Source: Promethearchaeota archaeon (lineage in GTDB: Archaea > Asgardarchaeota > Lokiarchaeia > Sigynarchaeales > SOKP01). Taken from it: 47,512 bases of DNA. Shown here piece after piece: positions 41,550-43,812 of the stretch (position 1 is its first letter; each line of letters begins with the position of its first letter). Below the pieces are notes generated by a model, which was given only the letters and a program-made list of their open reading frames with translations, was not told where the DNA came from and ran no database searches. Made by a program: the position numbers and the translations under genes. The stretch spans positions 1-47,512 of the forward strand of contig JAUWBH010000020.1 in the NCBI GenBank assembly GCA_030605085.1, given 5' to 3'.

Positions 41550-43812
41550 TTAGATAATTTTCTTTAACATTAATTTTAGAGATTCATATTTGTCGAATTG
41601 ATATATCTCAGCATTTCCGTATTTTTTGAAGTTCTTCTTAATTCTTTCAGCGGACGGAGTGTGAACCCCCAGCGCTTGAGTTGCATAAGATTTTTTCGGC
41701 TCTAACACAACTAAGTGAATTTTTTGTTTAGATAACTTTTTAGTATATTCTTTTAACTCATTAGTAATTAACGTATAATCTTGTTCAACTTGAGCTATTA
41801 AATCAGAATGTTTTACAGATATATTTGCCCCACAATCACTACAAATGAACACTACAGGAATAATATTTCTGTTTTTTAATTTTTCAACCTTAATTAAATC
41901 CGAACACTTCTTTAACGCTGCTGCCATTGGCGTATAAGATTTTCCTTCTAACCGCTTTAATTTGCGTGTAGCGTTCATGAAATTAACGGTAGGTTTCTGG
42001 AGAACAATCGCCTCTTTGCCTCTAAACACGATCAAAGCAATTTTGTCTTTTTTTCTGTATCCTTCTTTATGTAAAGATAAAATAACATCTGTCATTTGCT
42101 TTATGACGTAATACATCGAAGCGGAACTATCTAATACAAAAAATAACGCTAATGGAGCACGATATTCGTATATTTTATCCATTAAATCGTACTTATTAAA
42201 ACGAATAGGAAAGCCTACATCTATTTTATTATAAACTGTATTCTTCAAATAACTACGTATAGTCGCATCTAACGCAATACTTTTCGGTTGCCGGTTAATA
42301 GGTGTCCTGTATGAGACATATCTCCCTTTTTGAGAGGATGCAATTTTAATTCGTCTACCTATCCCTCGCCCCCCGTAATCCGTAACTTTTCGGTCTTTTC
42401 TGATATTATCTAAAATAGAATACATTTTTTTTTCCATTTTATAAGTAAAAGGTATTAAATCGAAGTCTTCTCCAGAAAAATTAAAATCTTCTTGATAATT
42501 GGGTATATCTTTTACTTTCCAACCTCCAGCAGGTCTTGCATTTCGTTTTTTCATATCATCGTATTTAGGAGGGGGTAATTTCTGTTCTCTTGTCTCAGGA
42601 ACTTCAACTTTATCAGGATCGATGGATTGTCGACTGAATTCTTTTTGTTGCGAATCATCGTGTTTCAAAGGACCTTCGGTGTCTCTATTAGGTTGATACA
42701 CTTTAGTGTTTTCGTAAGCTTCTTCTATTCTCCCGTAAACTTCTGTAATTTTATCTTTAATCTCTTTAGGAGTCATCTCGTAATGAAGTGATTGAATTCT
42801 ATGCTCAAAAACTAAGTCCATTGCTACATTTAAATCTTCTTCTAAAATTGTCTTTCGACCGGTTAATGCAGCGTGAGCCCTCGCACATCTTATAAATGTA
42901 ATATCTGCTCGTTGAGAAAATATTTCTAAATCGTTAACTATTTTCGACACTAACTCGTAAATACTAGAAGGGATTTCGACTTCTTTTACAATTTTTCGAG
43001 CTTGAAGTATCTTTTTTCTAAGTTTTTCCTGATCTGCTTCATATTTTTTAATAAATTCTTTTGGGTTATCATCGAACTCGATAACCCTTTTAGAAATTTC
43101 TGAGCGAAGTTTGGGATCGCGAGGAGCCCTTATTTTGACCTCTAATCCAAGTCTATCAGCGATTTGTGGACGAAGATCTCCTGTCGAATCCTAATTCGAA
43201 ACGAATTAAGAATCTTCGGGATTCATACTACCGACCAAAACAAATCTTGAGGGATGTGAGACCGATATTCCTTCTCTTTCAATTATATTAATTCCTGAGG
43301 CTGCAGCGTCCAGAAGTACATCAACAATGTGATCTTGTAAAAGATTGATCTCATCCACATAAAGAATACCTCGATTCGCTTTTGCTAGTAACCCTGGGTG
43401 AAGCTCTGAAGTCCCTTCGATAAGTACTTTGTCAATGGATAAACTACCACAAACCATATCTTCCAGAGAATCTTGAAAATCAAGAATTCTTTTCTGTAAC
43501 TCCAAGTGGTAGATTTACCAAACGCATTTCTCTTATTTCAGTTTCTAATTTACCTTTTTCCTTCTTTTCACGGCATGATGCACATAAATCGTCCAAACTA
43601 GTTTTAGGATCGCAGGCAAAACTACAATCTTTAATGATTTCTATTTTAGGCATAACTTCGACTAGAGATCTAACTGCTGTGGATTTTCCGGTACCTTGGT
43701 GCCCAGTTAATAATACACCACCTACGAGGGGGTCAATTACATTTAAAATTAGCCCCATTTTCATTTTATCTTGTCCTAAAATTGCTGTGAAGGGGAAATT
43801 AATCTTTCTCAT
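41550..43812 (-). CDS. Mg/Co-chelatase-like ChlI-ChlD fusion, split by two candidate BHB introns
   Basis: Exons 43812-43492, 43460-43213 and 43182-41550 join into 2202 nt, 733 residues. The AAA+ part has Walker A GHQGTGKST (37-45), a CDPKTSLDDLCASC Cys cluster, ANRGILYVDEINLL (Walker B) and EREGISVSHPSRFVLVGSMN. The C-terminal part is a VWA domain with MIDAS FVLDSSASM (about 541) and YTPMAAAL. The family drives metal insertion into tetrapyrroles with a CobN/ChlH partner, which is not in the window. Without intron removal the frame meets TGA after GVTEKNS and, later, TAA and TAG after NPEDS. All other parts are intact, including 42951-43182, which reads straight through. A twice-damaged pseudogene is the alternative. 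Confidence 0.75.
43183..43212 (-). other. Candidate 30-nt BHB intron (intron 2 of the chelatase gene)
   Basis: On the minus strand the RNA folds as: outer pairs UCC/GGA, a 3-nt bulge ACA on the 3' side, a 4-bp central helix CGAA/UUCG, a 3-nt bulge GAU on the 5' side, then a 10-bp inner helix UCUUAAUUCG/CGAAUUAGGA (one G-U) with loop UUU. This is the full bulge-helix-bulge motif. Cutting each bulge after its second base removes 30 nt and turns the codons into N-P-E-E-G-D-L-R-P, the canonical ChlI motif. Unspliced, the frame has TAA and TAG. Confidence 0.75.
43461..43491 (-). other. Candidate 31-nt BHB intron (intron 1 of the chelatase gene)
   Basis: On the minus strand: central helix ACAG/CUGG (three Watson-Crick pairs plus a terminal A-G), 5' bulge AAA, 3' bulge AAG, inner helix AGAAUUCUUGA/UCAAGAUUCU (10 pairs, one bulged U) and loop UUU. 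Cutting each bulge after its second base removes 31 nt and gives G-V-T-E-D-M-V-C-G, the family's usual T-E-D motif, in frame. The outer helix is weak, so this is a relaxed BHB. A perfect CAGA/UCUG register exists but would remove 29 nt and leave the frame broken. Confidence 0.6.

Follow-up and report, generated by a model that had tools for sequence, protein, structure and literature searches.

The locus described here raises the question of how an interrupted ChlI/ChlD-type gene might still yield an intact protein. The gene lies in the window (the whole 47,512-nt stretch of DNA analysed here). Read unspliced, its first frame runs from MRKINF to LPLGVTE and ends in KNS followed by a stop; a second frame restarts one frame over at DMVCGSLSID and reaches the next stop after NPEDS. 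With two inserts, A (30 nt) and B (31 nt), conceptually removed, the product is 733 aa long with zero internal stops. Pieces of the gene match the Pfam families Mg_chelatase (ChlI), AAA_lid_2 and VWA_2; as assigned from such matches, "metabolic gene" or chelatase is a family label only.

All 47 relatives of the gene identified in genome contigs come from Lokiarchaeota/Lokiarchaeia MAGs (best, 81% identity), and in a tree of 52 sequences the window sequence falls among the Lokiarchaeal relatives. Our main reading, to which we assign a probability of about 0.86, is that inserts A and B are pre-mRNA introns excised by EndA in what is likely a Lokiarchaeal gene. The coordinates of the features are collected in Table 1.

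Table 1. Positions of the interrupted gene, its predicted exons and introns, and the JAB/MPN gene in the window
Feature	Position	Strand	Basis
ChlI/ChlD-type gene (AAA+ with VWA domain), interrupted	41550..43812	-	ORF without internal stops once both inserts are removed
Exon 1, 107 codons, end ...LGVTE, phase 0	43492..43812	-	translation
Intron B, 31 nt, frame-shifting; missed by the preliminary description	43461..43491	-	homology, register set -3 to 0
Exon 2, start D-M-V-C-G-S-L-S-I-D, end ...NPE plus the first two bases (GA) of the interrupted Glu codon, phase 2	43213..43460	-	translation
Intron A, in-frame TAA and TAG inside; single product-preserving register	43183..43212	-	translation, register test
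Exon 3, last base (A) of the interrupted Glu codon followed by GDLRPQ... as far as the stop	41550..43182	-	translation
BHB of intron A, whole element, 43 nt	43179..43221	-	read from sequence
Intron A outer helix, 3 bp	43219-43221/43179-43181	-	read from sequence
Intron A central helix, CGAA/UUCG	43215-43218/43185-43188	-	read from sequence
Intron A bulges	43212-43214 and 43182-43184	-	read from sequence
Intron A inner helix, 10 bp, one G-U pair	43202-43211/43189-43198	-	read from sequence
Intron A loop, UUU	43199-43201	-	read from sequence
JAB/MPN (JAMM protease-like) gene, intact in the window	45997..46959	-	Pfam JAB

Geometry of inserts A and B

On the minus strand, insert A and its flanks read ucc.CGAA.GA^U.UCUUAAUUCG-UUU-CGAAUUAGGA.UUCG.AC^A.gga (carets mark cuts), which can be drawn as a bulge-helix-bulge (BHB). 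Cutting after base two of both bulges takes out 30 nt, the TAA and TAG among them, and leaves N-P-E-E-G-D-L-R-P; the unique register that preserves the product is the canonical register. The preliminary description of this DNA had reported a full BHB around a 30-nt insert, and its geometry was confirmed in every detail, as was the exact removal that deletes both stops and restores the motif. It had also read the locus as an mRNA intron in an Asgard metabolic gene; comparative evidence supports the reading as a BHB pre-mRNA intron, but two introns are predicted where one was described, and "metabolic" holds only as a family label.

Insert B interrupts the frame between GVTE and DMVCGSLSID and has the layout ACAG.AA^A-stem-loop-CUGG.AA^G. 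Its inner stem consists of ten pairs and one bulged U, its loop is UUU as in A, and it lacks a clear outer helix, so that B alone is a relaxed form of BHB. Four registers preserve its product, the canonical one among them, and its placement can slide up to 3 nt upstream with the same result. A and B have a plan in common: one bulge base, a stem-loop, four central bases and two bulge bases.

Single-sequence folding gave weak signals, with z-scores from -1.90 (intron A) to 0.06 (intron B) over seven elements, and the minimum-energy fold of the 43-nt intron A element differs from the full BHB (-14.8 vs -12.2 kcal/mol).

Inserts in the same gene of Lokiarchaeal relatives

A tblastn comparison, with the ORFs of 73 loci as queries (several from the same genomes), put the 30-nt insert at the intron A codon. 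Among the 47 loci, inserts are present at site A in L001 and L031 (30 nt) and in L036 (32 nt), and at another position, site C (ITEVYG^KI, 30 nt), in L028 and L040; L032 has a gap of N only and no insert. When the whole class was searched, 78 of 83 genomes yielded the gene or a close relative of it, and nine of these carry an insert, seven at site A (G001, G002, G003, G063, G064, G071 and G072) and two at site C (G004 and G005). This count covers stops and split matches whose break regions were fetched; other partial matches (e.g. in G013, G021 and G025) lie outside it. In G054 and G065, site A turned out to be uninterrupted. Across the phylum, 154 of 227 genomes gave a match, and among the matches listed stops occur only in G001, G002, G004 and G005.

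Intron length at site A is 30 or 32 nt, and the central helix moves by one base with the length. Depending on the register, the split codon is GA^A or G^AG, and Glu is retained in both. Each insert in the relatives, whether in the ChlI-type gene (30-32 nt) or in the JAMM gene described below (29-31 nt), brings an in-frame stop or a frame shift. Lengths of 29-32 nt are too short for the ribozyme core of a group I or group II intron.

The distribution of intron A was examined on 48 tips, that is, on the 52-sequence tree minus L037, L038, L043 and L044, in which site A is not covered. Eight of these tips have the intron, and a minimum of four (Fitch) changes accounts for its distribution; none of 1000 label shuffles was as low, the shuffle minimum being 5. 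Intron A thus follows clades and yet is patchy, being absent from L012, a near neighbour of L001. The preliminary description had proposed a search of related genomes, and the insert is indeed present at the same codon in independent Lokiarchaeal assemblies. It had named unrelated decay across the homologues as a sign against an intron; the ORFs are otherwise intact, with dN/dS of 0.05-0.12.

Inserts in a JAB/MPN gene

A scan of flanking regions revealed a further position, site D, in the JAB/MPN gene, where the insert comes after HSHP (HSHPGF^K). When the class was searched with the window copy, 68 of 83 genomes gave a JAB match, and five of these have the site-D insert (G038, G041, G045, G047 and G051). 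All five site-D introns (L003, L004, L008, L016 and L029) lie behind HSHP. Inserts in both the ChlI-type and the JAB gene were found in none of the 14 carrier genomes; one of these, G005, gave no match for JAB.

Introns A and B also fall in conserved motifs (NPEEG and TED), which places three of the four sites in highly conserved codons. The spacing between the ChlI-type and JAB genes is 127 nt in G008, 179 nt in G043 and ∼4 kb in G001 and G003. The two genes are directly adjacent in genomes such as G008, unlike in the window, where a 633-aa ORF without a Pfam match (43918-45819, minus strand) lies between them.

Features shared by 15 introns

Fifteen introns were analysed together; the G071 copy (L094), identical to the G072 copy (L091), was not counted. 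In all 15, a cut after the second bulge base restores the frame and the conserved protein. The central helix has four of four pairs in 11 introns (A and 10 others) and three of four in the remaining four, B included, and outer helices are short or absent. At the canonical register the mean is 3.73 of 4 central pairs, compared with 1.64 at shifts of 2-8 nt (15 introns that are not independent), and only 6% of the shifted registers have four of four. A single register is possible in 5 of the 15 introns, i.e. these have no repeat at the junction.

Site D provides changes on both sides of the central helix. Central pair 2 is G-C in four introns and A-U in L029; central pair 3 is C-G in four introns and U-A in L016, with a synonymous GGC-to-GGT change in the exon. 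As far as so few sequences can indicate, the central-helix pairs at site D appear to be kept by compensatory change, and the helix covariance that the preliminary description had suggested looking for is to this extent present, at pairs 2 and 3 of one site.

The exons gave dN/dS values of 0.048-0.118 in five pairs of insert-bearing genes, the sixth pair (L031 vs the window) being saturated, a pattern that points to strong purifying selection. Over the 28-nt core of intron A, the window copy differs at two positions from L001, at two from L092 and at four from L091, at pS values of 0.72-0.73. Since these differences are few against such pS values, most site-A introns have either evolved far more slowly than synonymous sites or been exchanged later than their flanks. 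The L031 intron, at the same site A, is dissimilar and differs at 13 of 30 positions.

Predicted processing and candidate enzymes

We infer cleavage, ligation and translation of the spliced mRNA as follows. Each transcript segment would fold as a BHB, EndA, probably of the heteromeric alpha-beta type, would cut each bulge behind its second base, the RNA ligase RtcB would rejoin the exons, and the spliced mRNA would serve as the template that is translated. That retention of an intron might give a truncated protein of regulatory use is speculative.

Candidates for both enzymes are encoded by the relatives. EndA (PF01974) was found in 8 of 8 relatives, with two matches in five of them. In an alignment of 10 of the 13 EndA proteins, five have the EHS and RKK residues, whose positions we take to be catalytic, and five have no His there. 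The occurrence of a catalytic-looking and a His-less type suggests that Lokiarchaeal EndA may be an (alpha-beta)2 heteromer. This is, according to PMC6379350, one of two EndA types efficient on relaxed BHB introns. RtcB was found in 16 of 17 relatives, the one without a match being G002, an intron carrier; in G001 and G004, also carriers, only the His-less type of EndA was matched. Gaps in the MAGs may explain the missing subunits in these three carriers.

Other explanations of the inserts

In programmed bypassing, the ribosome would stall before the hairpin, and the peptidyl-tRNA would leave its take-off codon and re-pair on a matching landing codon downstream (archaeal recoding is the subject of a review, PMC8211752). 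The inserts are short, form hairpins and contain stops, as bypassing would have it, and matched codons are found at B (GAA/GAA), at site C (GGA or AAA) and, as synonymous AAA/AAG, at site D in L008. The bypassed elements (byps) of Magnusiomyces mitochondria and the hop in T4 gene 60 are likewise short hairpin inserts with stops in coding genes, but those are skipped by the ribosome between matched codons, and this is what six of the seven site-A copies, intron A included, disallow: because the junction splits a codon, they have no hop that yields the conserved protein. The seventh copy, in L031, would need GAA on TAA, and TTT on TAA would be required in four of the five site-D copies. A single mechanism for all sites is simpler, and we regard bypassing as improbable.

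Alternatively, the gene might be decaying or misassembled, and the inserts would then be mutations or artefacts. That indels or decay occur on this contig is evident from a plain frameshift in the EamA gene of the window (6316-7253). The inserts, in contrast, recur in independent assemblies with the same type and codon position, the ORFs around them are otherwise intact and constrained (dN/dS 0.05-0.12 between insert-bearing genes), and the insert sequence is conserved above synonymous sites. We give decay or assembly error very little chance.

Excision at the DNA level in some cells, like that of small internal eliminated sequences, would agree with the many related genomes that have insert-free orthologues. 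It is highly improbable, as the patterns of A and D are confined to their own sites in 83 genomes, with the exception of one three-mismatch match in G009, and 5 of the 15 introns lack a junction repeat. The least probable explanation is regulatory truncation or recoding, in which the unspliced short product would be functional, as in two-subunit chlD genes with programmed frameshifting (known for chlD-type genes, according to PMC9227772): the short products would break off at LGVTE or NPE, within the AAA+ core, and exon 3, absent from them, is under purifying selection within the 733-codon comparison.

Motif scans and prevalence

A loose scan of the window for BHB motifs returned 13 sites, and six Markov-simulated controls returned 7-16, so the motif alone is not beyond chance. 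For the EndA-excised intron reading, it is the way geometry, frame and product fit together, and the recurrence in relatives, that exceeds chance. An ORF-fusion scan of the window gave three real matches (A, 13.3; B, 11.0; a third, 8.9) and three in the mirror control (12.6, 10.6 and 9.1); the third real match, at 6560-6597 inside the EamA gene, was taken as chance. The same scan gave 30 real and 53 mirror matches in the first 400 kb of contig C9 of G001, where homology backs only the ChlI insert, and 113 real and 99 mirror matches in 567 kb of loci, where three of the top mirror matches are runs of N. De novo detection is therefore weak, and the claim rests on homology.

When 620 kb of G001, 800 kb of G007, 177 kb of G045 and the window were compared with one another, hairpin inserts were found only in the ChlI and JAB genes; the ORFs of which a homologue from another test genome spanned 60% or more numbered 162, 114, 127 and 42, respectively. 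Four +1/-1 shifts (one of them the EamA break of the window) and three 18-nt gaps seen with single queries were not counted as introns. A control gene, an 811-aa HdrA/FlpD-type protein, showed no intron-like insert: over the first 51 rows listed, the net change in length ranged from -9 to +3 nt. No dispersed copies of introns A and D were detected in the 83 genomes outside their own sites, apart from the G009 match, with patterns that miss some variants; a control pattern gave one match, in G064, which shows the noise at the three-mismatch level. Viral contigs yielded no relative, and a cDNA-like copy of the spliced product was not found, the best 120 listed of a 5.8-billion-protein set all being at most 86% identical. 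Most puzzling of all is that the introns are confined to two neighbouring genes; as the search was hardest around ChlI, part of this is ascertainment.

A broader proposal is doubtful. A family of BHB mini-introns of ∼30 nt in Lokiarchaea would repeatedly invade conserved-motif codons of the neighbouring chelatase-type and JAMM genes and move as bare introns between species (e.g. by reverse splicing or gene conversion), and the gene pair would be expressed only with EndA and RtcB active. Movement as bare introns is suggested by the near-identical site-A introns in lineages whose synonymous sites are close to saturated, with relatives that lack the intron between them.

ARAGORN detected two tRNAs in 40 stretches of the relatives, in a mode that may miss intron-containing tRNAs. 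Over 620 kb of contig C9 in G001 (L103-L122 and L172-L182), it detected a single tRNA.

Relation to known introns

The introns of cbf5 in Crenarchaeota (Desulfurococcales and Sulfolobales) are likewise short, of BHB type, in a protein gene and patchily distributed with losses. Their lengths in Table 1 of PMC2738675 are 16-44 bp, so 30 nt is ordinary for an archaeal mRNA intron, and the preliminary description of insert A as among the shortest imaginable was wrong. The present cases differ from cbf5 in the phylum, in the genes (ChlI/ChlD-type and JAMM), in having four sites and in one gene with two introns; moreover, cbf5 splicing has been demonstrated, whereas here we infer it. BHB introns in archaeal tRNA and rRNA are predicted to share the motif, the endonuclease and the ligase, but the host RNA here is an mRNA, in which the frame and a protein motif need to be restored exactly. 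BHB sites of HVO_1309 in Haloferax volcanii also make an mRNA an EndA substrate (PMC7714728); they lie in the 5' UTR, whereas the present ones lie inside coding sequence.

A passage of the same 2020 paper (PMC7714728) gives the crenarchaeal cbf5 mRNA intron as the only additional archaeal BHB intron reported, and the accessible portions of PMC12397907 and PMC13149111 mention no Asgard case. In the titles and abstract openings of the open-licence PMC literature, we found no report of BHB introns in protein genes of Asgard archaea, Lokiarchaeota or Promethearchaeota. On the best reading of these sequences, putative BHB pre-mRNA introns are new for Asgard archaea and for both genes. If spliced, they would be the first protein-gene introns of BHB type in the sister group of eukaryotes, adding two new genes and four sites, one of the genes having two introns. 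It would follow that routine gene calling splits genes of this kind in MAGs, and the gain, loss and possible movement of introns could be tested directly in a lineage relevant to how the eukaryotic tRNA-splicing enzymes arose.

Other features of the window and relatives

The EamA transporter gene (minus strand) is split by its frameshift without a hairpin insert, reflecting decay or sequencing error. The window also contains a group II intron reverse transcriptase/maturase ORF (RVT_1, RVT_N and GIIM; 1761-3290, minus strand) and a Mutator-type (MULE) transposase apparently split over two ORFs, the second without a Pfam match (9469-10843, plus strand). An ORF of 1532 aa (12431-17029, minus strand) has weak sacsin-type and HATPase matches, both under the Pfam cut-off. 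Among the relatives, HdrA-like paralogues contain four to six in-frame TGA codons and one or two TAA/TAG codons (G026:C12:104339-106675, G046:C17:8406-10754, G057:C145:7770-10091 and others); these TGA-rich paralogues are possibly multi-selenocysteine proteins or cases of recoding.
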